From a bacterium (GTDB taxonomy: Bacteria; Oederibacteriota; JAAXVQ01; JAUVAV01), in contig JAIORK010000045.1 of NCBI GenBank assembly GCA_021108215.1, positions 128,594 to 161,448 of the forward strand: a DNA stretch of 32,855 bases, in the 5' to 3' direction. Positions 9,458 to 20,667 of this stretch are shown here, one piece after another. The notes beneath the pieces are model-generated. The model was not told the origin of the DNA, searched no databases, and worked only from the letters and a program-made list of their open reading frames with translations. The translations under genes were made by a program, and so were the position numbers. Position 1 is the stretch's first letter. Every line of letters starts with the position of its first letter.

Positions 9458-9469
9458 CAATCACTCCAC

Positions 9470-9516
9470 AATATCTGGTATATGGCAATTGCCACCCCTA
9501 CTTTATACCAGATATT
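9470..9516. repeat. 13-bp inverted repeat in the leader of the O-antigen ligase gene
   Basis: Arms AATATCTGGTATA (9470-9482) and its complement (9504-9516) flank 21 nt that include GGCAATTGCC, itself a palindrome. It lies directly upstream of the ligase ribosome site, at the left edge of the restriction island. It could be an operator, an RNA hairpin covering the leader, or an insertion scar. Confidence 0.5.
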
Positions 9517-9580
9517 ATCTTGAATCGAAATGTTTTTCTTGGATTTGTGTGAAATAAAGGACATGAAAACAATATTTTGC

Positions 9581-9659
9581 GTAAAAGCAATCCCTTGTGG
9601 TTGCCCATGATTGGTTGTTGGTCCCTTGTTTTCAGGGTACCCACAAGGGGCACCCCTAC
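9581..9659. repeat. Dispersed repeat, copy A (CCCTTGTGGTTGCCC type)
   Basis: About 79 bp with imperfect inverted ends (left AATCCCTTGTGGTTGCCC, right GGGTACCCACAAGGGG then CACCCCTAC). It matches a second copy at 10805-10874, including the central TCCCTTGTTTTCAGGGTACCCACA. The left end is decayed (GTAAAAGC for GTAGGGGC). It lies in the 345-nt gap (9458-9802) left of the Bro-N gene. Confidence 0.7.
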
Positions 9660-9702
9660 AAATTCGCGGTAGTTCTATCCTTTTACCTGCATCATTCAAC
9701 TG

Positions 9703-9771
9703 CATATGACCATCTGCGGCAGTTGTTTCCATTTTGGAAACAGTTGCATTTTCCTACAATTCACCGCTTTC
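9703..9771 (-). pseudogene. 23-codon remnant of a RhuM-family gene
   Basis: Read on the minus strand from 9771 the frame gives ESGEL-stop-ENATVSKMETTAADGHM. The intact RhuM gene at 13370-14386 has ESGELDEKVVSSILEHTTQHG at the corresponding place, and 15 bases around 'caattcaccgctttc' are identical between the two loci. A stop interrupts the fragment, and nothing RhuM-like continues beyond the repeat elements on either side. It sits directly downstream of the intact Bro-N gene. I read it as the leftover of a second RhuM copy; the match is short, so this needs alignment. Confidence 0.5.
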
Positions 9772-9777
9772 GTAATA

Positions 9778-9807
9778 AGTAGGGAACGCAGATCTGCGTT
9801 CCCTACT
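9778..9807. repeat. Perfect 30-bp palindrome overlapping the Bro-N stop codon
   Basis: Each half reads AGTAGGGAACGCAGA and its complement. The TAG within the left end of its minus-strand reading is the stop codon of the Bro-N gene (9803-9805). There is no T tract, so it is not a standard terminator. It belongs with the other GTAG...CTAC palindromes in this window. Confidence 0.85.
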
Positions 9808-10627
9808 CTAATTCATCATTTCTCCCAAGATAATTCTGTTTCGAAACCACGCTTCTGCCCAGTTCTTTTTCCGTTGCTTTTCTGGCATTACCGGCAACTT
9901 TGCCACCACGTCTGGCAACATTTTTATTTCGTTTAAATGTAGCGGGTTTCTCTTTCTTGGAAATCTCTGTTGTAACGCGCTCGCCCAGCATATTAAAAAT
10001 AAGTTCCAGATCATCCATGTGGTCGCGCAAATTAGCTTTTGATTTTTCAGATAAATGCTTATGCGCCCTATATTCATCGGGCGTCATTCCAAAGGTTGCT
10101 TTGGATATTTCGGCCGTTAAGATGGCAAAGTCCTGCTGCTTTTCGATACCGCGCTCTTTCCATTCATCAGTCAAATTCTGCCGTATGGCAATGCCGCGAA
10201 GCCGCTTATCTATCCAATCCTTGGAATAACCCTTTTTCTCGTAAATCTCTTTCATACGTTGTTGGGCGAGTTCAGGATTCTCTATCTCCTGCACCCGTTC
10301 ATAGCCAACTTTTGCCAACCAGCGCTTAAACGGCTCGGCTTTGGGGGATGGAATAGACTGGATAATACGGAACATACCTTCGGTGTTGGCGCAGTCGGTT
10401 AAATATTTTTTGCTGTCAGAAGCTTCTAATTTCAGTTGTCTACAAATTGTAGACAACTGAAATCCGTCATCGTTTTTCACTCGGGCTTTCATTGCGTTCC
10501 AATAAACACGGGGTTTGTTACTAGCTGTTAGAACCTCCACCACATCCACCACCGAAAACCACCACTCATCGTTATGATAGGTCTTTCTAATCGCCTTTCC
10601 CTGAAACACCGCTAAACTATTAGACAT
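9803..10627 (-). CDS. Bro-N domain protein (phage antirepressor-like)
   Basis: The 274-residue product starts MSNSLAVFQGKAIRKTYHND and EWWFSVVDVVEVLTAS, the Bro-N fold typical of BRO/antirepressor proteins. The following part (FRIIQSIPSPKAEPFKRWLA, GYERVQEIENPELA) matches Bro-N proteins related to DinD. The C-terminal half is charged and ends in a basic 'NVARRGGKVAGNARKA' segment that may bind DNA. The start at 10627 is chosen by AGGAGG 10 nt upstream; a longer frame to 10669 has no ribosome site. The gene lies at the downstream end of the restriction island, separated from hsdR by repeats. Its leader is near-identical to the leader before a Bro-N fragment at 14383. A role in regulating the island is possible but not shown. 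Confidence 0.85.
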   Translation of the reverse strand: MSNSLAVFQGKAIRKTYHNDEWWFSVVDVVEVLTASNKPRVYWNAMKARVKNDDGFQLSTICRQLKLEASDSKKYLTDCANTEGMFRIIQSIPSPKAEPFKRWLAKVGYERVQEIENPELAQQRMKEIYEKKGYSKDWIDKRLRGIAIRQNLTDEWKERGIEKQQDFAILTAEISKATFGMTPDEYRAHKHLSEKSKANLRDHMDDLELIFNMLGERVTTEISKKEKPATFKRNKNVARRGGKVAGNARKATEKELGRSVVSKQNYLGRNDELE

Positions 10628-10643
10628 GTTATTTATTCCTCCT

Positions 10644-10688
10644 GTGTATAGAATGATGGTTCTACACACTTAGACCAACATTTTTCAA
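10644..10688 (-). promoter_or_regulatory. Dyad operator candidate and promoter of the Bro-N gene
   Basis: Arms GTGTATAGAA (10644-10653) and TTCTACACAC (10660-10669) form a 10-bp dyad with one mismatch, just upstream of the ribosome site. A minus-strand TTGAAA at 10683-10688 with TGTAGA 16 nt downstream is a possible promoter whose -10 lies in the dyad. The same dyad and -35 recur at 14504-14548, centred at the same distance from the start codon. Autoregulation by a repressor or Bro-N protein is an inference. Confidence 0.45.
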
Positions 10689-10713
10689 TTTCCTTGCAAA
10701 ATATTGCGTTTTT

Positions 10714-10794
10714 TTATGCATATGTCATCAGCTGCCTAGTACCAGCAATTTTCAAATCACTTTGGTTGTTAATGATTTTAATGCCCACCACCAT
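10714..10794 (-). other. Short ORF (26 codons) upstream of Bro-N, doubtful
   Basis: The frame reads MVVGIKIINNQSDLKIAGTR then QLMTYA and stops. Its 'KIAGTRQLMT' segment parallels 'KITGASYLIS' in the short ORF at 14600-14692, which sits in the same place before the other Bro-N leader. There is no good ribosome site. Probably part of the duplicated segment rather than an independent gene. Confidence 0.2.
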
Positions 10795-10804
10795 ATCACC
10801 CAGC

Positions 10805-10874
10805 GTAGGGGCAATCCCTTGTGGTTGCCCCATGATTGTTGATCCCTTGTTTTCAGGGTACCCACATGGGGTAC
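10805..10874. repeat. Dispersed repeat, copy B (GTAGGGGCAATCCCTTGTGG type)
   Basis: Begins GTAGGGGCAATCCCTTGTGG and ends TTTTCAGGGTACCCACATGG. It matches copy A at 9581-9659 over most of its length and keeps the intact left end; the right end has lost the CCCCTAC terminus. Located between the hsdR and Bro-N genes, next to a gene remnant. Confidence 0.7.
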
Positions 10875-10899
10875 ATTCGATTGTTGTGGATTCAATGAT

Positions 10900-10971
10900 T
10901 CAATGCACAATTTTCGTGAGCGAACCGAGTTTCAGCTTTTTATTAAGTTTTTCCGTAAAGTGGATAATCAT
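10900..10971 (-). pseudogene. N-terminal remnant resembling DUF6933 proteins
   Basis: A ribosome-site-like GGGGGATTTGAAAA precedes an ATG at 10971 that encodes MIIHFTEKLNKKLKLGSLTK and IVH, then a stop. 'MII..T.KL.KKLK' is how DUF6933 proteins begin; these are small proteins often found among accessory genes. Only 23 codons remain before the dispersed repeat at 10805-10874. The assignment rests on a short match from memory. Confidence 0.35.
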
Positions 10972-10993
10972 TTTTCAAATCCCCCGCCGGGAG

Positions 10994-11034
10994 TCTATAG
11001 ATGCGGTGGGTGAGCTTGTCGAACCCCCGATCAT
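10994..11034. repeat. 41-nt dispersed repeat overlapping the hsdR stop
   Basis: Contains GGTGGGTGAGCTTGTCGAAC and CCCCCG. It is identical at 38 of 41 positions to 12532-12572 inside hsdR. Its last bases (TCA at 11031-11033) supply the hsdR TGA stop codon. The core 'TTCGACAAGCTCACC' (minus strand) is a dispersed-repeat motif known from many bacterial genomes. Confidence 0.75.
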
Positions 11035-13367
11035 CTTGCATATAAATAGCGCTGAAAATCAATAAAAGTCTTCCGCATAGCATCCAGGCTGCCTAGTATT
11101 TCTTCTGCATCTGCCAGAGATTGATATTTCAATTCCAACAATCCCGGAAGTTTTTCTTGATCCAGCTCCTCCACACCTGTTTCAATATATTGATGAAGCA
11201 CAAACTCCAAAAATTCCTTTTGGCTACTATCGAGTCCATTGAAAATTTTTGTTTGCGCCTGAGCCACACGCATTTCTCTGGTGATGGGTTTCAAAGCAAA
11301 AGCCACATATTCCAGAACATCAAACAAATCACTTTTTTCAGCATCAATCACTTTTTGTAAATTTACTAATTCATCTTTACCATATCCAACAGCCGAGAGC
11401 TTTTCCAGAAATGCTTTACGTGTCAGCGGACTTGACCAAATTTTCCGTAATTCCGCCTCATTTTTTATATACTCAGGTAATTTTCCATACAACATTTCCA
11501 AAAATTCTTCCGTTGAAATTGGTTTCCCCTCTGCACTCCAAAATAATGTCGCAATCATATGTTGAATTTCTCTTGTTTTCCCGTCACTTAATTTTATTTT
11601 TATCTTTTCATGTTGTTCCCTGTGATTCGTCAAATACTCGGGACTATCTTTTTCGTTGGTTGCATTTGGTCTTTTCGGATCTACGATTGTATAGTCCAAA
11701 GGATCTTCCGGTTCGCCATCCCACTCCGGATCAGAACAATGATGATAGGCATTCACAAAATCATAAATCGTAAAATAGTCTTTCCCGTCAAACAGACGCG
11801 TTCCCCGTCCAACAATTTGTTTGAACTCAATTATCGTATTCACCGACCGCAACAGTACAATATTCCGGATATTCCGGGCATCAACCCCGGTTGATAATTT
11901 TTGCGATGTTGTCAATATCGTCGGAATCGTTTTTTCATTATCCTGAAAATCCCTTAAATGCTGTTCACCCAATTCCCCGTCATTTGCAGTCACCCTTTGA
12001 CAATACTGCGGATCACCACTTGGATTATATTGATTCACAAAATCACGAATCAGCGCAGCATGCGACTGGTTCGCACAAAAAATAATGGTTTTCTCATTCT
12101 GTTTAATTTCAGACAGAACAATCCTGACCCGTTCCCCTTCACGTTCTTTTATTTCAATAATTTTATTAAATTCAGGTTCCTGATAAATCTTGCCGGATTC
12201 AACTTCTCCTTCAATAACCGTGTCATCAGATGTATAGATGTATTCATCCATCGTTGTCTGAACGCGTTTTACTCTAAACGGTGTTAAAAAACCGTCATTG
12301 ATCCCTTCCTTCAGCGAATAGATATACACCGGATCACCAAAATACTTATAGGTGTCCACATTATCCCGTCTTTTTGGCGTGGCTGTCAGACCCAGTTGAA
12401 CAGCAGGTGAAAAATAATCCAGAATAGCCCGCCAGTTGCTTTCATCATTGGCACCGCCGCGATGGCACTCATCAACAATGATGAAATCAAAATAATCATC
12501 CGGATATTGACCGAAATATCCTTCGACGAAATCTGTAGATGTGGTGGGTGAGCTTGTCGAACCCCCGCTCATAAATGTCTGAAAAATAGTAAAAAAAATG
12601 CTGCCATTGGTAGGAACGCGTCCCTGTCTGCTGATTTCACTTGGTTTGATCCGGACCAACGCGTCTTCAGGAAATGCACTGAACGCGTTGAAGGCCTGAT
12701 TCGCTAAAATATTTCTGTCTGCCAAAAACAATACGCGCGGTCGTCTTGATCCATCCCGCTTTAAATTCCAGCGTGTATGAAAAAGCTTCCACGCAATCTG
12801 AAAAGCAATAAAAGTCTTCCCGGTTCCGGTTGCCAGGGTCAAGAGAATACGATCTTTGCCGGCTGCTACTGCTTTCAATGCCTTATTAACAGCAATTTCC
12901 TGATAAAACCGGAGCGGTTTTGTCCCGCCAATATCCTCAAAAGGAATTTGATCGAACTTGTCTTCCCACTTATTTCCCACTTCAAAAACTCTGTTCCACA
13001 ATTCATCTGGTGTGGGAAAACTATCTGCCAGGCCTTCTTCAGCAGTATCCATATTGATTTGATATATTTCTTTGCCATTGGCAGCATAGGTATAGCGCAA
13101 ATGCAATTTATCCGCATAGTTTTTTGCCTGCGCGACACCTTCCCCAACTTCCAGTTCATCACTTTTGGCTTCAATCACCGCGAGCTTACGATTTTTATAA
13201 ACCAGAATATAATCAGCAATAAGCGGCTTACGCGGCGCATTGTTGATATTGATCTTACCGACAGTAATATGAAATTCGCGCAGAACTTTTGTGCCTTCAA
13301 CAACACCCCAGCCCTTTTCTTTTAATGCCGGGTCAATGAGTTCCGCCCTGGTCTCGGCTTCGTTCAT
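11031..13367 (-). CDS. hsdR: Type I restriction enzyme R subunit (EcoEI-like)
   Basis: The 778-residue product has an N-terminal PD-(D/E)XK nuclease (D52, then E66-A-K68 in LAVIEAKSDE). A superfamily 2 motor follows: Walker A ATGTGKT at 179-185, DECHRGG at 299-305, LTATPKR after it, and QIVGRGTRLFDGK as motif VI. The C-terminal part matches the EcoEI R family. With HsdM and HsdS it should translocate unmethylated DNA and cut it at a distance. Residues 267-280 (MSGGSTSSPTTSTDF) lie in a loop before DECH and are encoded by a dispersed repeat. The ATG has GGAAGG 6 nt upstream and follows the RhuM stop by 2 nt. Fold and motifs are intact. Confidence 0.95.
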   Translation of the reverse strand: MNEAETRAELIDPALKEKGWGVVEGTKVLREFHITVGKININNAPRKPLIADYILVYKNRKLAVIEAKSDELEVGEGVAQAKNYADKLHLRYTYAANGKEIYQINMDTAEEGLADSFPTPDELWNRVFEVGNKWEDKFDQIPFEDIGGTKPLRFYQEIAVNKALKAVAAGKDRILLTLATGTGKTFIAFQIAWKLFHTRWNLKRDGSRRPRVLFLADRNILANQAFNAFSAFPEDALVRIKPSEISRQGRVPTNGSIFFTIFQTFMSGGSTSSPTTSTDFVEGYFGQYPDDYFDFIIVDECHRGGANDESNWRAILDYFSPAVQLGLTATPKRRDNVDTYKYFGDPVYIYSLKEGINDGFLTPFRVKRVQTTMDEYIYTSDDTVIEGEVESGKIYQEPEFNKIIEIKEREGERVRIVLSEIKQNEKTIIFCANQSHAALIRDFVNQYNPSGDPQYCQRVTANDGELGEQHLRDFQDNEKTIPTILTTSQKLSTGVDARNIRNIVLLRSVNTIIEFKQIVGRGTRLFDGKDYFTIYDFVNAYHHCSDPEWDGEPEDPLDYTIVDPKRPNATNEKDSPEYLTNHREQHEKIKIKLSDGKTREIQHMIATLFWSAEGKPISTEEFLEMLYGKLPEYIKNEAELRKIWSSPLTRKAFLEKLSAVGYGKDELVNLQKVIDAEKSDLFDVLEYVAFALKPITREMRVAQAQTKIFNGLDSSQKEFLEFVLHQYIETGVEELDQEKLPGLLELKYQSLADAEEILGSLDAMRKTFIDFQRYLYAR
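12532..12572. repeat. 41-nt dispersed repeat inside hsdR, in frame
   Basis: 38 of 41 positions match 10994-11034. On the minus strand it encodes part of a Gly/Ser/Thr/Pro loop (SGGSTSSPTTST) in HsdR between the helicase motif Ia-Ib region and DECH. The reading frame stays open, so the enzyme may tolerate it. Confidence 0.75.
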
Positions 13368-13369
13368 AA

Positions 13370-14386
13370 TTATCCTTCCAAACGTTTTATTTCCTTATCA
13401 AAATCGGAAATATAGTCTTTATCTTGCTTCTTACGGTAACTTTCATATTCCTGTTCAGCCTTGAGTTTGGCTTCCAAGGCACTTACTTTGCCATTATCTT
13501 TTAGAATGGGATAATTAGAAAGCTCTAAAAACTTATGTAAAAAAGAGGTCCATTCTTCCATTTTGGTTACTAATTGTTTCTCTGCCCTGGTTTCCGCCAA
13601 ATCAAGATAAGCAGAAATAATACGATTTAATTCCCTGATATGCGCTTCACCAAGATAATTCTTGGCAACCATTGTATCTGACTTCAAAACCATACCATCA
13701 GGAGCTTGTTTCCAGTTGGTCAGTCCCATATAAATTTTCTCCGCATCAGCAGAGTCATAGATGATTTCAGCAGCTGTTTTTCCGGTAATAGCCCAATGCA
13801 ATTTATTTTGTACTGTTGCAAAAAAATCTTTGGTAACAGGTGCATTATTATCATAATCTACTGAAAGCGCATAAATATCCGTAATTTTCTGGTAAAATCT
13901 GCGCTCACTTGCCCTGATTTCACGAATACGCTCTAAAAGCTCGTCAAAATAATCCCTGCCAGGCTGTTTACCACGCTTGAGCCGCTCATCATCCATGGCA
14001 AAACCCTTGATAATATATTCTTTCAGGACTTTGGTTGCCCAAATCCGGAACTGCGTTGCCTGATAGCTATTCACGCGGTATCCAACGGCAATAATGGCAT
14101 CGAGATTATAATACTTAACTGGTTGTTTCTGAGTTTTTCCTTCAATGGCACCATGTTGAGTGGTATGTTCCAAAATGGAACTTACCACTTTCTCGTCCAA
14201 TTCACCGCTTTCAAATATTTTTTTTAAGTGTTTTGTAATAGCCGGACGATTAACACCAAACAACTCACCCATCTTTTTTTGAGATAACCAGAAAGTCTCA
14301 TCCTGATAAATAACCTCAATGTGAATCTTACCTTTGGGTGTTGAATATAAAATCATGTCAGATGTTGATTGGCCGTCGTGATTCAT
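13370..14386 (-). CDS. RhuM-family protein
   Basis: The 338-residue product has the N-terminal winged-helix-like part (FWLSQKKMGELFGVNRPAITKHLKKIF, residues 31-57), then ESGELDEK, YYNLDAIIAVGYRVNSYQATQFRIWATKVLKEYIIKGF, and a helical C-terminal half. This is the virulence RhuM family, common inside type I restriction loci and accessory islands; its biochemical role is not established. The length is normal. The ATG overlaps the stop of the Bro-N fragment (ATGA) and has GGAG 7 nt upstream. hsdR follows by 2 nt, so it is cotranscribed within the restriction locus. Confidence 0.88.
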   Translation of the reverse strand: MNHDGQSTSDMILYSTPKGKIHIEVIYQDETFWLSQKKMGELFGVNRPAITKHLKKIFESGELDEKVVSSILEHTTQHGAIEGKTQKQPVKYYNLDAIIAVGYRVNSYQATQFRIWATKVLKEYIIKGFAMDDERLKRGKQPGRDYFDELLERIREIRASERRFYQKITDIYALSVDYDNNAPVTKDFFATVQNKLHWAITGKTAAEIIYDSADAEKIYMGLTNWKQAPDGMVLKSDTMVAKNYLGEAHIRELNRIISAYLDLAETRAEKQLVTKMEEWTSFLHKFLELSNYPILKDNGKVSALEAKLKAEQEYESYRKKQDKDYISDFDKEIKRLEG

Positions 14387-14487
14387 ACCAGTTCTCCATT
14401 TATATCAACCGGTGAATATAAGTACCCTTTGCTATGCCAGCTTCTTCGGATTTCTTTTTCCTGAAAAATTGCTAAATTTTTAGACAT
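14383..14487 (-). pseudogene. Truncated Bro-N gene (34 codons), now coupled to RhuM
   Basis: A leader almost identical to that of the intact Bro-N gene (AGGAGGAATAA, then a few bases, then ATG) begins a frame reading MSKNLAIFQEKEIRRSWHSK then GYLYSPVDINGELV and a stop. The intact protein begins MSNSLAVFQGKAIRKTYHND then EWWFSVVDVV. The fragment therefore covers only the start of the Bro-N domain. Its TGA overlaps the RhuM ATG, so it may now work as a translated leader for RhuM. Confidence 0.7.
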
Positions 14488-14503
14488 GTTACTTATTCCT
14501 CCT

Positions 14504-14548
14504 GTGTATAGAATAATCACGCTATACACTTAGACCGATATTTTTCAA
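14504..14548 (-). promoter_or_regulatory. Dyad operator candidate and promoter of Bro-N fragment and RhuM
   Basis: Arms GTGTATAG (14504-14511) and CTATACAC (14522-14529) are a perfect 8-bp dyad. On the minus strand TTGAAA (14543-14548) and TATAGC (14521-14526, spacing 16) form a possible promoter, with the -10 in the dyad. Position and centre equal those of the copy at 10644-10688. This would start a transcript for RhuM and hsdR separate from hsdM and hsdS. Confidence 0.5.
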
Positions 14549-14599
14549 TTTTCTTGTAAAAATTATAATTTAACCTTCAACAATGCAGAAAAAAATATT

Positions 14600-14692
14600 T
14601 TATTTTCCTATTGAAATCAAGTAACTGGCACCAGTAATTTTCTTTGCTTTGGAATATGGTAGTTTGTTGGAATGGGGTATTGATTTATTCAT
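14600..14692 (-). other. Short ORF (30 codons) coupled to the GHKL gene stop, doubtful
   Basis: The ATG overlaps the TGA of the GHKL gene (ATGA), and the frame reads MNKSIPHSNKLPYSKAKKIT then GASYLISIGK. Part of it parallels the short ORF at 10714-10794. It could be a tiny coupled gene or a by-product of the duplicated segment. I recognise no family. Confidence 0.25.
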
Positions 14693-16815
14693 TTGACTTC
14701 CAACTTATCTATAAATATTTTATTACGCTGTTTTGCTCGTTCAAGTAATGTTGAATATTTTATTATTTCTGTATATAATGCTCCATCTTTTTTCCCGAAT
14801 TTACCCTTCAATCGTTTATAAGGACGATAAAGATAGTTGAAATTAGACGCGAACAAAAAATCACTATCATTATCATTGACATCATCAACATCTATATTTT
14901 CACCTATCAAGTACCCATAAAAAGATATAAAGTTATGCTCTTTTTTCGAAAGATTATTAATTAGACTTGCATATCTATTTATCTGATTGATATGATCCGA
15001 AACATTAACTTCCGGTGATTTGAATTCTAATATAATACATTTACCTTCCGCAGGAAATAAAAGAATATCCGGCCTCTTCAAGTTTGCGTCGCCTTTCTGC
15101 TTTAAACGGTATGCCTCTTCTTCTTCTGTCAAATTATCTTTAAGTAATTTATTTTTATCAATAAAAACATCTTCTATTTTTTTATCTGACGTTCCTTGAA
15201 AATAAATAAATTCTTCATTTATTACCCACAAATCGCTTTTTTCTGGGTCATCGGTACTTTGTTGAAAAATAAGATTATGTAATAATTTTTCATCTACATT
15301 TCGCGCTTCTTTTTTCTGGTTTTCCATTTCACGGTTTAATATTTTGTCAAACAATTCAAGAACTAGTTTTCGGCGTGCTACATAACGTGTCAAAGACGTA
15401 CGATTTTGCTGTGGTATTTCTTTAACAAGTTCTGAAATTATTTTATTGAAATTTTCTTCATAGTTTTTCTCGTCCAATGCAAGCGTATTAAGAGTATCCA
15501 TTTGTTTCTTTATTTTCGCATCATTTTGGGCCGCTATTTCACTATCTGCTTTGTACACTTTTTTAAGTATATCAGCATCGGTATCATGCAAATCACACGT
15601 TATGGTATTTAATGTTGTATCATTCAGCAAGAACATTGATTTTAATTTATCTAGTTTTGCGTTTTGATCTTCCTTGTTTTTTCGTATCTCAGGATATACT
15701 GCTTCGATTTTTTTATTCGCTATATCTTCAATTGTTTCTGACAAAATTTCTTCTTTTTCAAATAAACTAGGATCGGCATATTTCTTCTTAAATTCCTTAG
15801 TAGTCGTAATATTAAAATCCCCTCTTGACGCGCCATCCGATTCATCAAAATATTTTCCAGATATAAAAAATAAATAGCGTTTATTTTCAATTGTATCCTT
15901 TTTGGCAAGACACGTTATTTCAATTTCTTTATTTTCAACGACTTCTGATTTAATTACTAATTTAATTGAATTTTCACTCAACTCATTTTTTTGAATTTCA
16001 ATAGCATGCAATGTCAATGCTTCTGTTTTTTCACTATTTATAATTTCTTTCCCATCTGATGACATTTTCGAATAATTAATTACAATTTGTTCCTCTTTAT
16101 TAAACTCTGGAATATCAGATGAAGTAATTGTTTGTGCCTCTTCTGATTTCAATTCACCATCAACATACTGCTCAATTTTTAGCAACGAAATATCATTCCG
16201 CCGAATACAAAACCATGGCAAATAATGTTTAAGCAAGGCCTCCTTCAGCTTATTTGTCGTTAGTTCATCATATTCTTTCTTCTCGGTTTCATTTAATAAT
16301 TCTTTTAATTTAAGAATCGTTTTAGATTCGCTAGAATCGGCATCCTTTGTAGCAAACTGATAAATAATAGCATTATTTTTTAAATATTCCTCTGACTTGG
16401 ATAGATAAAATTTCCGTTCTTTATATTTCCCATCATCATTTTTAAAAATACTATAATATTCTGATTTCCCGAAAAGATGTAGGAGCTGAACCCGTCCAGC
16501 TCCTCTGTTTTTCATCCCCTTCCGGTCATCACCCCAGGTTTTAAAACGTTTATAATTTTCATCAGTGAATCCGATACCATTATCTTCAATTTCAATATAA
16601 TCAAATTCAAGCATGCCCCCAACCAGTATTTTTCGATGAAATAATCGAATAATAATCTTCGGAGTATCAACAGCTTCATTTTCACGAAATAATGATTCCA
16701 GAGAATTCGTAAACCCTTCATAAATGGGTTTGAATTTTGTTTCGGCTTTTTTAATACTCTTAATAGCCCTTTCATACCAAATATCCAAACCTTTAATAAA
16801 GCCTGTGTCTACCAT
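14689..16815 (-). CDS. GHKL ATPase fused to PD-(D/E)XK-like nuclease, in a type I RM locus
   Basis: The 708-residue product begins with a Bergerat ATPase fold: N box YEGFTNSLES (E33, N37), G1 box IEIEDNGIGF (D78, G80, G82) and G2 region GMKNRGAGRVQLLHLFG (residues 100-116). A long charged, partly coiled middle follows. The C-terminal domain has RPDILLFPAEGKCIILEFKS, with D583 and E597-x-K599 in PD-(D/E)XK spacing, then a helix with DHINQINRYASL. Related MutL/MORC-like GHL ATPases have been described in restriction-modification operons, but a defined activity for this architecture is not known to me. The start at 16815 is preferred because a GAGGGGGG ribosome site sits about 9 nt upstream; it lies 1 nt after the hsdS stop. 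The gene looks clearly more A+T-rich than the flanking housekeeping genes. Confidence 0.8.
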   Translation of the reverse strand: MVDTGFIKGLDIWYERAIKSIKKAETKFKPIYEGFTNSLESLFRENEAVDTPKIIIRLFHRKILVGGMLEFDYIEIEDNGIGFTDENYKRFKTWGDDRKGMKNRGAGRVQLLHLFGKSEYYSIFKNDDGKYKERKFYLSKSEEYLKNNAIIYQFATKDADSSESKTILKLKELLNETEKKEYDELTTNKLKEALLKHYLPWFCIRRNDISLLKIEQYVDGELKSEEAQTITSSDIPEFNKEEQIVINYSKMSSDGKEIINSEKTEALTLHAIEIQKNELSENSIKLVIKSEVVENKEIEITCLAKKDTIENKRYLFFISGKYFDESDGASRGDFNITTTKEFKKKYADPSLFEKEEILSETIEDIANKKIEAVYPEIRKNKEDQNAKLDKLKSMFLLNDTTLNTITCDLHDTDADILKKVYKADSEIAAQNDAKIKKQMDTLNTLALDEKNYEENFNKIISELVKEIPQQNRTSLTRYVARRKLVLELFDKILNREMENQKKEARNVDEKLLHNLIFQQSTDDPEKSDLWVINEEFIYFQGTSDKKIEDVFIDKNKLLKDNLTEEEEAYRLKQKGDANLKRPDILLFPAEGKCIILEFKSPEVNVSDHINQINRYASLINNLSKKEHNFISFYGYLIGENIDVDDVNDNDSDFLFASNFNYLYRPYKRLKGKFGKKDGALYTEIIKYSTLLERAKQRNKIFIDKLEVK

Positions 16816-16816
16816 T

Positions 16817-18025
16817 TTATAATCCCCCCTCAAATGCTTTTTGCAAAACCGACTGCTTTAATTCTTCAAGTCCGGATATTTTTTGTTGATAGATGGATTC
16901 AAGACGCTTGGTTTCGGCAGAGAGTGCGTTGAGCTTGGCAACGATGCGTTTTTGTTCAGTGAGAGACCGTGGGTAATAAATGATATATTCCTCGAGTTGA
17001 TTTTTAGTAAGCGCTTGTCTGGTAGCGCCTGCTTTTTCACCTATAGTTAATAAACGATCTTTATGTACTTTTGATATTAATATGTACCACAATAATTTTG
17101 ATTCCATTACACCTTGCTTCAATCTAATTATTGATACATGTTGATTCACTCTTGCCGGCAAAACATCATCAGGGACAATTGTGCAACGGCAAATAGAAGC
17201 ACCTGTTATATTCAGAAGAACATCACCCGATTCAACTATAACATTTGAAAGTTTATCTGCTTGGGCTTGGTTAATAAATGCTAGTTTTTTATAGGCAAAC
17301 CCATTATCATAAACATTTAAGCTCCGAATCAGTGATAGACCTTCCGCTTTGTATTCGTTTTTTCCACCACGAGGCGTAGCACCACTACCTATTTTGTTTG
17401 TTATCGTCTCAAGCTTTTTCTCTTCCCAATCTTTCCCCGGACTGGCAAAGATATTCTGCAAATAAGAATCAAACAATTCCTTGGCGTTTTTGAGATTTTT
17501 CTCAGCATTTTCTTTGGCTTTATCAATAGCAGTAAAAGCTTTGTCGAGGGTTTTTACGATGCGTTTTTGTTCGGGGAGCGGGGGGATGGGGATTGCGAGT
17601 GATTTAATAAAAGGAAGCTTCACTCCTTTTACTGTTGCCCCTGTTCCTTCTTCTTCAATTTTATATGAAATACTTTTAAACCATTGAAATAAGTATTTCG
17701 CAGATATTTTTTCTGCTGTTTTAGGTACAATCCCTCTTAAATCCTGGTTTATTGCGGTATCATTTTCTATCCAACATATTTTCCCCAAACCTACCCTAGT
17801 GGCAATAATTACATTCCCTTTCGGAATGATGTTCGTCGAGCTTTTTTTAATAGCTTCTCTTGTGATTTTGTGTTCAGTATCTTTAATGCACTCTAATTTC
17901 ATATCTCGAACGGTAGCCCAAGGGATTTCACCATTATAAAATTTACTGTTAGCTTTGGATGGAGTGCCACCGCCAATAATATCACACACTTCCCCCAATC
18001 TCTTCTCTTCCCACCCCTTTTTCAT
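16817..18025 (-). CDS. hsdS: Type I restriction specificity subunit
   Basis: The 402-residue product has two target-recognition domains, each starting with a similar phrase (GWEEKRLGEVCDIIGGGTP at the start and DWEEKKLETITNKIGSGATP near residue 204) and each ending in LPEQKRIV or LTEQKRIVAKL followed by a coiled helix. This two-half layout is standard for HsdS, which fixes the DNA sequence recognised by the M and R subunits; the two halves bind the two parts of a split target. The ATG overlaps the hsdM stop by 4 nt (ATGA). The target sequence cannot be read from the protein. Confidence 0.95.
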   Translation of the reverse strand: MKKGWEEKRLGEVCDIIGGGTPSKANSKFYNGEIPWATVRDMKLECIKDTEHKITREAIKKSSTNIIPKGNVIIATRVGLGKICWIENDTAINQDLRGIVPKTAEKISAKYLFQWFKSISYKIEEEGTGATVKGVKLPFIKSLAIPIPPLPEQKRIVKTLDKAFTAIDKAKENAEKNLKNAKELFDSYLQNIFASPGKDWEEKKLETITNKIGSGATPRGGKNEYKAEGLSLIRSLNVYDNGFAYKKLAFINQAQADKLSNVIVESGDVLLNITGASICRCTIVPDDVLPARVNQHVSIIRLKQGVMESKLLWYILISKVHKDRLLTIGEKAGATRQALTKNQLEEYIIYYPRSLTEQKRIVAKLNALSAETKRLESIYQQKISGLEELKQSVLQKAFEGGL

Positions 18026-19476
18026 ACCAATTCCCTTATGCCTTTAAGAATCTCAGCGTTTTCTTTATCAAGGGCTTTTATCTCAGCTAATATCTCTTTA
18101 GGATTTCTTAAAACTGTTTCATCTTTCTTATTAGGGTTTTTGACTGAAAGGTCGCAGGTTTCTTCATTCACATCAGCGATGTTCACTGTCCATGAATTGT
18201 CTGAGTCTTTCCTGGCCTTTTGCAGTTTTACAAATTCTGCCAAATCCTTTTCATTGAGTGGGTTGGTTTTGCCCAGGTTGCGATCGAGATTGAGTTGATA
18301 GAACCAGGTCTTTTTTGTTTTTTTACCTTTCTCAAAAAAGAGCACCACTGTTTTGACGCCAGCACCGGTGAAGGTTCCTCCCGGCAAATCAAGTACTGTA
18401 TGCAAATTACAGCTCTGGAGTAGTTCTTTGCGTAGTGAGATAGAGGCATTGTCTGTATTGGATAAAAAGGTGTTTTTGATAACCACACCAGCCCTGCCCC
18501 CGGCCTTTAGCTTTTTGATAAAATGCTGAAGAAAAAGAAAAGCTGTTTCCCCGGTTTTGATGGTGAAGTTCTGCTGGACTTCCTGCCGCTCTTTTCCACC
18601 AAATGGCGGATTGGCGAGAATGATATCAAAGCGGTCTTTTTCCTGTATATCCATGATATTTTCAGCCAGTGTATTGGTATGGACAATATTCGGCGCTTCT
18701 ATGCCGTGGAGTATCATATTCATGATTCCAATAATATAAGCCAGTGACTTCTTTTCTTTTCCGTAAAAGGTGCTTTTTTGCAATGTTTTATTATCTTTGG
18801 TTGTCAATTTTTCGGTATTCTTCAAATATTCAAACGCTTCCACCAAAAAGCCTGCCGAACCAACTGCACCATCATAAATTTTATTCCCGATCTCAGGTGC
18901 CACGACTTTGACAATGGTTTTAATCAGCGGCCGAGGCGTGTAATATTCACCGCCATTGCGGCCGGCATTGCCCATATTTTTAATTTTATCTTCATAAAGA
19001 TGGGACATCTCATGCTTTTCTTTGTGAGTTCTGAATTTTAGTTCATCAACCCGGTTGATCACTTCCCGCAGATTATAACCACTCTGGACACGATTTTTCA
19101 ATTCACTGAATATCTCACCGATTTTGTATTCAATGGTATTCGGGCTTTCAGCACTGGTTTTGAACTTTTTCAAATAAGGAAAAAGTTTGTGATCCACAAA
19201 ATCGCGCAAATCATCACCGGTCAGCGCTTTGTGATGATCAAGCTTGCCTTCTTTATTTTTTGGCGCTGCCCAAACTGCCCATTTAAATTTATTGTCTATT
19301 ATTTGTGTATGATGGTGTCCTGATAAGGCTGCGGCTGCTTTCTTATCTTTTTCCAAATCATCCAGATATTTGAGGAACAATATCCATGAGGTCTGTTCCA
19401 CATAATCCAGTTCACTGCTGCACCCGGCATCTTTGTGTAATATATCGTCTATATTTTTAAATACCTGTTCAAACAT
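18022..19476 (-). CDS. hsdM: Type I restriction methyltransferase subunit
   Basis: The 484-residue product has the HsdM N-terminal helical domain (residues 1-140) and GGEYYTPRPLI (175-185) before the methyltransferase domain. SAM-binding motif I is DGAVGSAGF (202-210) and catalytic motif IV is NPPF (289-292), as in N6-adenine methyltransferases. It should methylate adenine at the HsdS-defined site, protecting host DNA. The ATG has AAGGAAG 6 nt upstream, and that site begins right after the wecB stop, leaving only 12 nt between the genes. First gene of the island; no separate promoter is evident. Confidence 0.96.
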   Translation of the reverse strand: MFEQVFKNIDDILHKDAGCSSELDYVEQTSWILFLKYLDDLEKDKKAAAALSGHHHTQIIDNKFKWAVWAAPKNKEGKLDHHKALTGDDLRDFVDHKLFPYLKKFKTSAESPNTIEYKIGEIFSELKNRVQSGYNLREVINRVDELKFRTHKEKHEMSHLYEDKIKNMGNAGRNGGEYYTPRPLIKTIVKVVAPEIGNKIYDGAVGSAGFLVEAFEYLKNTEKLTTKDNKTLQKSTFYGKEKKSLAYIIGIMNMILHGIEAPNIVHTNTLAENIMDIQEKDRFDIILANPPFGGKERQEVQQNFTIKTGETAFLFLQHFIKKLKAGGRAGVVIKNTFLSNTDNASISLRKELLQSCNLHTVLDLPGGTFTGAGVKTVVLFFEKGKKTKKTWFYQLNLDRNLGKTNPLNEKDLAEFVKLQKARKDSDNSWTVNIADVNEETCDLSVKNPNKKDETVLRNPKEILAEIKALDKENAEILKGIRELV

Positions 19477-19488
19477 GAGTAACTTCCT

Positions 19489-20667
19489 TTAATTCGATAT
19501 TTTTAAACCTAAATAATCCCTGGGCCGGGTTTTCTTATGCTTGAAATGCCACAAAAGAACATCGACAATCCGGGCTGCGGCCCGGCCGTCGCCGAAAGGA
19601 CAACTGAGCTTGGCTTTCCCGCGCACTTTTTCCCGCAACCGGGCCGAGACTTCCCGGACAATCGTGTCCTCATCCAAAGCGATCAACCTGGCACCGGCTT
19701 TCAGCGCCTCAGGCCGCTCGGTTTTTTTACGCAGAATCAATGCCGGAACACCCAATGCCGGTGCTTCTTCCTGGATCCCGCCGGAATCAGTCAAAACCAA
19801 TTCAGCATGGCGCAGGAAGTTGATAAACGCCGGATAGTCCATGGGAGTGATACGTTTTAAATTGGCAGGGGCTTTGCCCAGCAACTGATTAACGGTTTTG
19901 CGAACCATTGGATTGGGATGCACGGGAAAAACAAAAATCACGTCAGGGAAAAAATGTGCCAGTCTAAAAAGCGCTCTGCAAATTGCCTGCAGCGGTTTCC
20001 CGAAATTTTCCCGGCGGTGGGCGGTGACTAAAACAATACGTTTTAATGCCGGATCAAACCCCATCCCCTGACTGGTAAAATCGAAATCCGCTTGCAAGAC
20101 TGAGCGCATGGCATCCACCACCGGATTGCCGGTAATAAAGATCTGCGATTTCGAAATACCCTCGGCGAGAAGATTTTCATAGCTGTTCCGGGTGGCTGCA
20201 AAATGCCATTGCGCCATTGTGGTCACCATACGGCGGTTAATCTCTTCGGGAAAAGGATTGCGCGGATCAAAGGTCCGCAATCCGGCCTCCACATGCCCGA
20301 CCGGTATCTGGAGATAAAAGGCCGCCAATGCGGCGGACAGCGTGGTGGTGGTGTCTCCCTGCACCAGCACGGCATCCGGTTTTATTTTTTTAAACAGGGT
20401 TTCACATCCCACCAGCGCCTGGGCATTGAGCCCTGCCAGGGTCTGATTATGCCGCATGAGGTCCAAATCCACCTGGGGTGTGAGCGAAAAAGTCTCTAAA
20501 ACCTGGTCCAGCATCTCACGGTGCTGGGCTGTGACCGTCACCGTCGTACGAAAAACATCCGGAACTGCTTGCAAGGCATGCACCACCGGTGCCATTTTAA
20601 TGGCTTCAGGTCGCGTTCCAAAAACACAGGCAATGTGTTTTTTATGAGTAGCTTTCTTTATAGCCAA
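19489..20667 (-). CDS. wecB: UDP-N-acetylglucosamine 2-epimerase
   Basis: The 392-residue product matches the non-hydrolysing epimerase: FGTRPEAIKMAPVVHAL near the start, VQGDTTTTLSAALAAFY and HVEAGLRTFDPRNPFPEE in the middle, and TDSGGIQEEAPALGVP late. It interconverts UDP-GlcNAc and UDP-ManNAc for surface polysaccharide. The only start that keeps the FGTRPE motif in frame appears to be a TTG at 20667, ten bases inside the wecA-like gene end. A rare start and a weak ribosome site suggest coupled, low-level translation. The next gene downstream is hsdM. Confidence 0.93.
   Translation of the reverse strand: MAIKKATHKKHIACVFGTRPEAIKMAPVVHALQAVPDVFRTTVTVTAQHREMLDQVLETFSLTPQVDLDLMRHNQTLAGLNAQALVGCETLFKKIKPDAVLVQGDTTTTLSAALAAFYLQIPVGHVEAGLRTFDPRNPFPEEINRRMVTTMAQWHFAATRNSYENLLAEGISKSQIFITGNPVVDAMRSVLQADFDFTSQGMGFDPALKRIVLVTAHRRENFGKPLQAICRALFRLAHFFPDVIFVFPVHPNPMVRKTVNQLLGKAPANLKRITPMDYPAFINFLRHAELVLTDSGGIQEEAPALGVPALILRKKTERPEALKAGARLIALDEDTIVREVSARLREKVRGKAKLSCPFGDGRAAARIVDVLLWHFKHKKTRPRDYLGLKISN

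Follow-up and report, generated by a model that had tools for sequence, protein, structure and literature searches.

Directly behind hsdS, within an intact EcoAI-type restriction-modification operon, lies a gene for a 708-residue fusion of a GHKL ATPase and a PD-(D/E)xK nuclease, and its product is probably a phage-restriction enzyme of the paraMORC3 kind that works autonomously as one protein, the gene having been inserted so that it is translationally coupled to the operon. This explanation builds on what was observed of the domains, the active-site residues and the surrounding island, and on the finding that most relatives do not depend on hsd genes. A defence role for the protein itself we infer from the tested relative VcSduA, by architecture and residues. 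All positions are those of the window, that is, the whole stretch of 32,855 nt of contig JAIORK010000045.1 that was analysed.

The gene, the operon and the island

The gene had been placed at 14689-16815, 1 nt from the hsdS stop, by the sequence-only reading of this DNA. That position holds, and the strand is corrected to minus: over these positions stops crowd the plus strand, and the minus strand has an open frame of 708 codons, from an ATG at 16815 to a stop at 14689. The minus-strand order of genes is wecA, wecB, hsdM, hsdS, GHKL-nuclease, RhuM, EcoAI-type hsdR and Bro-N, with the following features.

18022-19476, minus strand: hsdM, type I methyltransferase, 484 aa (Pfam N6_Mtase, 1.4e-65)
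16817-18025, minus strand: hsdS, type I specificity subunit, 402 aa, with two Methylase_S stretches (Pfam, 2.6e-42)
16824-16831, minus strand: ribosome-binding-site-like GAGGGGGG, within the 3' end of hsdS (sequence)
14689-16815, minus strand: GHKL ATPase - PD-(D/E)xK nuclease fusion, 708 aa, paraMORC3-like (ORF, conservation, AlphaFold2, Foldseek)
14404-14561, minus strand: remnant of an additional Bro-N gene start, located between the GHKL and RhuM genes (repeat, translation)
13370-14386, minus strand: RhuM (Virulence_RhuM), PADLOC candidate PDC-S05 (Pfam, PADLOC)
11031-13367, minus strand: hsdR, EcoAI/FtnUII-type, complete (NCBIfam NF046051, 785 bits against a cut-off of 550; Pfam)
9803-10669, minus strand: Bro-N domain protein, PADLOC candidate PDC-S13 (Pfam, PADLOC)

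The operon is compact: hsdM starts 12 nt beyond wecB and overlaps hsdS by 4 nt, and the ATG of the GHKL gene is 1 nt downstream of the hsdS stop at 16817. The element GAGGGGGG in the last hsdS codons would make a good, well-placed ribosome-binding site for the GHKL gene; a start at the TTG of 16833, which would overlap hsdS, is a less likely alternative. A promoter scan gave no excess over shuffled sequences (28 versus 28.8), and therefore no internal promoter is claimed. HsdR carries an HSDR_N nuclease match of its own, together with a Walker A motif (GTGKT) and DECH.

In base composition the GHKL gene stands apart from its neighbours, with a GC content of 30.6% (GC3 24%) against 38-41% for the three hsd genes (hsdM 40%, hsdS 38%); the flanking housekeeping genes on the wecB side have about 50%. 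This fall from about 50% through 40% and 38% to 31% suggests that the GHKL gene arrived separately from the hsd genes.

Because the wecB and O-antigen-ligase genes adjoin in the relative G005 (L142), with a gap of some 30 nt and without the 10-kb island, we take 9460-19489 to be an insertion in the window genome. At the same site G002 (L143) carries about 2.8 kb of other small genes, which by eye include a nucleotidyltransferase/HEPN-like pair and a DinD/Bro-like fragment. The wecB/O-antigen-ligase junction is thus a variable site, empty in G005 and occupied differently in the window and in G002.

The island also holds repeats. A 158-nt direct repeat (14404-14561 and 10544-10701, 75% identical) duplicates the start and leader of the Bro-N gene; the truncated copy runs for about 34 codons past its ATG, with a stop codon that overlaps the RhuM start. 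Two non-coding repeats (9579-9653 and 10803-10874, with stretches of 28 and 42 nt at 89-90% identity) lie about 1.2 kb apart, one on either side of Bro-N, and the repeats around Bro-N suggest a mobile or recombining cassette.

Architecture, active sites and known kinds

The 708-residue protein divides as follows.

16201-16776, minus strand: GHKL (Bergerat) ATPase domain, residues ~14-205 (conservation, model, Foldseek)
16705-16719, minus strand: N box, E33-N37 (conservation)
16570-16584, minus strand: G1 box, D78-x-G-x-G82 (conservation)
16492-16503, minus strand: G2 box, G105-x-GR108 (conservation)
15841-16188, minus strand: transducer/S5-like region, residues ~210-325 (model strands, Foldseek alignments)
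15316-15801, minus strand: helical linker/coiled coil, residues ~339-500 (long model helices H413-444 and H452-499)
14692-15303, minus strand: PD-(D/E)xK nuclease domain, residues ~505-708 (invariant residues, HSDR_N, Foldseek)
Nuclease residues, minus strand: E509, H513, D583 (15067-15069), E597 (15025-15027) and K599 (15019-15021) (conservation)

When 92 full-length relatives are aligned, no variation is seen at D78, G80, G82, G105, G107, R108, E509, H513 or D583, and conservation reaches at least 90% at E33, N37, E597 and K599; a conserved R331 directly follows the transducer/S5-like region. These residues make up the three boxes (N, G1 and G2) that mark a Bergerat ATPase and the E-H...D...ExK set that marks a PD-(D/E)xK nuclease. 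The motifs are common to more than 90 homologues from many phyla. Pfam HATPase_c matched 38 of 63 relatives, and Pfam HSDR_N gave a weak match to residues 497-663 of the window protein (E 3e-4, under the gathering cut-off). No family in PADLOC or NCBIfam matched the GHKL-nuclease protein.

The structure models agree with this division. For the full-length AlphaFold2 model (mean pLDDT 83.8) the best Foldseek match in the PDB was the ATPase module of SMCHD1 (E 6e-11), and others were the modules of PMS1/MutL, TRAP1, ParE/GyrB, MORC2 and topoisomerase VI; the alignments to the N-terminal modules of MutL, TRAP1, GyrB and SMCHD1 span some 350-470 columns and include the S5-like region. The C-terminal 212 residues, modelled separately (pLDDT 76.5), matched McrC (E 1.6e-3, probability 0.99), NucS/EndoMS, the BspD6I small subunit and other restriction enzymes. 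Three earlier proposals are borne out by these results, namely three Bergerat motifs, kinship with MutL and MORC, and a nuclease-like C-terminal domain of the D...ExK type, the last by structure prediction, with a weak profile match beside it. MutL, MORC2, SMCHD1 and TRAP1 share the GHKL and transducer fold with the window protein (E 6e-11 to 1e-7) but lack its C-terminal PD-(D/E)xK domain, and the identity is just 8-14%.

Is the fusion, as had been supposed, a new kind? It had already been described in 2008 as paraMORC3 by Iyer, Abhiman and Aravind (PMC2292703): a GHKL domain, an S5 domain and a C-terminal restriction-endonuclease-fold domain with E-D-ExK, encoded in restriction-modification systems or standalone, with a wide and sporadic spread, mainly in proteobacteria and bacteroidetes. 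The window protein has an N-terminal GHKL domain with intact ATP-binding motifs, an S5-type domain behind it by Foldseek, and a C-terminal domain with E509, D583, E597 and K599 whose fold is indicated by Foldseek and the weak HSDR_N match, so that by architecture we assign it to the paraMORC3 kind. The 2008 text as consulted (PMC2292703) describes no insertion into a type I (hsdMS) locus, which is where the window gene lies.

A single-gene GHKL-nuclease of this sort, VcSduA of V. cholerae, protects on its own against phages (Adams et al. 2025, PMC12137116). Either of the changes E27A and K557A abolishes its phage defence, so both active sites are needed, and infected cultures survive at every MOI tried, which indicates direct restriction (PMC12137116). 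Adams et al. tied VcSduA to paraMORC3 and placed it in Shedu type I-D owing to DUF4263 (PMC12137116). Both it and the window protein join GHKL and PD-(D/E)xK domains in one gene, and E27 and K557 are equivalent to E33 and K599; VcSduA, however, adjoins GrwAB without a type I locus, whereas the window gene lies in one. Because the family member L113 has its N-box Glu at 27 and its ExK Lys at 557, the very numbers of VcSduA, we judge from residue positions that VcSduA is very probably a member of this family too. L113 and L005 do not share a clade with the window protein. Since it forms a long branch, 22-29% identical to its relatives, function is transferred from VcSduA through architecture and residues, not close kinship.

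Should the protein then be called a Shedu? Pfam SduA_C (PF14082/DUF4263) matched 0 of 63 family members at E <= 0.01, though the same model does match a true Shedu neighbour in L005 (1.3e-25), and so the window protein is not filed as Shedu by sequence. An hhalign comparison of the nuclease-domain profile with that one L005 Shedu sequence found nothing. E. coli SduA (8ps5) was matched by the C-terminal domain at E 0.09, at rank 11, after McrC and NucS. Matches of single relatives to Tiamat TmtA, JukA and PD-Lambda-5 (E 0.004-0.007) were dismissed as GHKL cross-talk or chance.

The family and its gene neighbourhoods

Homologues were drawn from tblastn searches of plasmids, a profile-guided scan of GTDB genomes and viral contigs. 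The GTDB scan contributed the best 80 of 273 relatives, those closest to the query, and counts from it are not true frequencies. Among the viral contigs the profile-guided scan found 29 homologues and a search with the window protein alone found no matches; 50,697 phage records yielded no homologue, and a scan of E. coli with a relative as query gave no matches. Across 45 genomes of the window's phylum the window copy is the only full-length one, the other matches being short stretches within other large proteins.

In a tree of 95 family members the window protein groups with L002 and 25 others, mostly proteobacterial (n = 27, support 100), and the detailed placement of its long branch is unsure. 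Within this clade 1 of 27 members has hsdMS nearby, the window itself. In a separate clade, 10 of the 19 members have hsdM or hsdS no more than five genes away, against 8 of the 75 others (Fisher p = 2e-4); these counts rest on profiles built in this analysis, and with related sequences the p value is only indicative. A recurring hsdMS link, of the sort on which the sequence-only reading depended, is therefore found for the family as a whole, in another clade, and in the window's own clade it is confined to the window.

Across the whole family sample hsdM and hsdS are the commonest recurrent neighbours. The GHKL gene adjoins hsdS on the same strand in the window, L009, L074, L080 and L084, and lies one gene away from it in L005 and L051. 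In the planctomycete L080 the order is hsdM-hsdS-GHKL-hsdR, and the GHKL gene overlaps each of its two hsd neighbours by 4 nt; L074, from a Rhodocyclaceae genome, has hsdM-RhuM-hsdS-GHKL-hsdR, and L084 has hsdS-GHKL. L005, L009, L074, L080 and L084 all belong to the 19-member clade. Most family members have no hsd genes nearby, many lying among other mobile or defence genes, and the hsd-linked clade also holds plasmid members that stand alone. L012 and L058 lie beside Eco57I-like enzymes.

In the type I loci of two Vibrionaceae plasmids (L005:1743-11950 and L009:3119-11950) an SMC/AAA ATPase gene separates hsdR from hsdM, and the GHKL-nuclease comes after hsdS. The two form a natural insertion pair, since in L005 a Shedu gene has been added at the exact junction of hsdS and the GHKL gene. 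A type III mod-res pair followed by the GHKL-nuclease, with gaps of 14-58 nt, recurs as a cassette in L043:3238-11986, L050:958-11983 and L121; the annotation of L050 also places an HKD-Snf2 helicase upstream. On a Pseudoalteromonas piscicida plasmid (L002:9956-13707), the gene of the window protein's nearest relative (28-29% identity) overlaps by 4 nt that of a DRT4-like defence reverse transcriptase, possibly as a GHKL-nuclease and RT pair.

Independence or partnership with the type I enzyme

Does the ATPase-nuclease work with the type I enzyme in whose operon it sits? The sequence-only reading had suggested that HsdMS, RhuM, Bro-N and the GHKL protein may form one composite system. As a second type I effector, the GHKL-nuclease would be recruited by HsdM2S to unmethylated sites, beside HsdR or in its place, and the same-strand adjacency to hsdS in five loci, the near adjacency in two more, the 4-nt overlaps of L080 and the enrichment of hsdMS in the 19-member clade would all fit. 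We nevertheless find such a composite quite unlikely, and the system with RhuM and Bro-N unsupported: the window's own well-supported clade has no second hsd-linked member, the family is attached also to type III operons (L043, L050, L121) and to the Eco57I-like enzymes, most members are standalone, plasmid members stand alone even within the hsd-linked clade, and the window's HsdR is complete. In a particular form of this idea, to which we give very little credence, HsdM2S would target a nuclease that is ATP-clamped and does not translocate; the GHKL protein would dock at HsdS-bound unmethylated DNA and cut there, so that one specificity subunit served two effectors. Were that true, type I restriction would include a branch with a MutL-like effector, gained independently at least two times.

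Alternatively, the ATPase-nuclease might modulate the type I enzyme, for instance as a MutL-like follow-up nuclease that recognises the DNA ends or translocation products left by HsdR and continues their degradation. The MutL/MORC kinship accords with this proposal, as do the suggestion by Iyer et al. of DNA looping and cooperation with restriction-modification helicases and nucleases (PMC2292703) and the recurrence of SFII helicase-bearing restriction subunits, of types I and III, as neighbours; but standalone members are many, VcSduA is active solo (PMC12137116), and neither a conserved interface nor a fusion was seen, and we judge modulation unlikely. Could the gene simply be a decaying passenger, acquired horizontally and without a present role in defence? 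It is AT-rich and divergent and lies near gene remnants and repeats, with the Bro-N remnant adjoining. That it should be decaying is nonetheless very improbable, given a frame open for 708 codons in which no catalytic motif is damaged, and a good ribosome-binding site that couples the gene to hsdS.

We therefore prefer an independent restriction module, because the tested relative works alone, most members stand alone, the gene's composition is unlike that of the hsd genes, and HsdR is complete. In such a module the GHKL dimer, on binding ATP, would clamp shut on foreign DNA or a phage-made structure, and this closure would license cutting by the paired C-terminal nuclease domains. HsdMS-HsdR would work separately, on unmethylated DNA, so that two lines of DNA restriction, independent of each other, would be stacked in the locus. 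The coupling to hsdS may do no more than ensure expression. Against independence one may set the standing of hsdM and hsdS as commonest recurrent neighbours, the L080 overlaps, which could mean joint function, and the low identity across which function is carried over from VcSduA by architecture; since the other clade shows this arrangement repeatedly and with overlaps, some cooperation with the type I enzyme is conceivable.

Independent systems nested in type I loci have precedents. TgvAB is embedded between hsdS and hsdR (PMC12409362), and DarTG2 lies between the same genes in the RptR island (PMC12255303). The operon position is that of the window's GHKL gene, but the proteins differ: TgvAB is GmrSD-like, and DarTG2 is a DNA ADP-ribosylating toxin-antitoxin. 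The nested position of the GHKL gene is one instance of a recurring pattern.

What does this mean for the family? Single-gene defence of the paraMORC3/VcSduA-like sort would extend to a deep, divergent branch, and such genes entered type I operons directly behind hsdS at least two times independently. If the nested systems cooperate, this locus would serve to test why defence modules come to be nested in restriction-modification operons; if they do not, it would be one more case of guilt by embedding.
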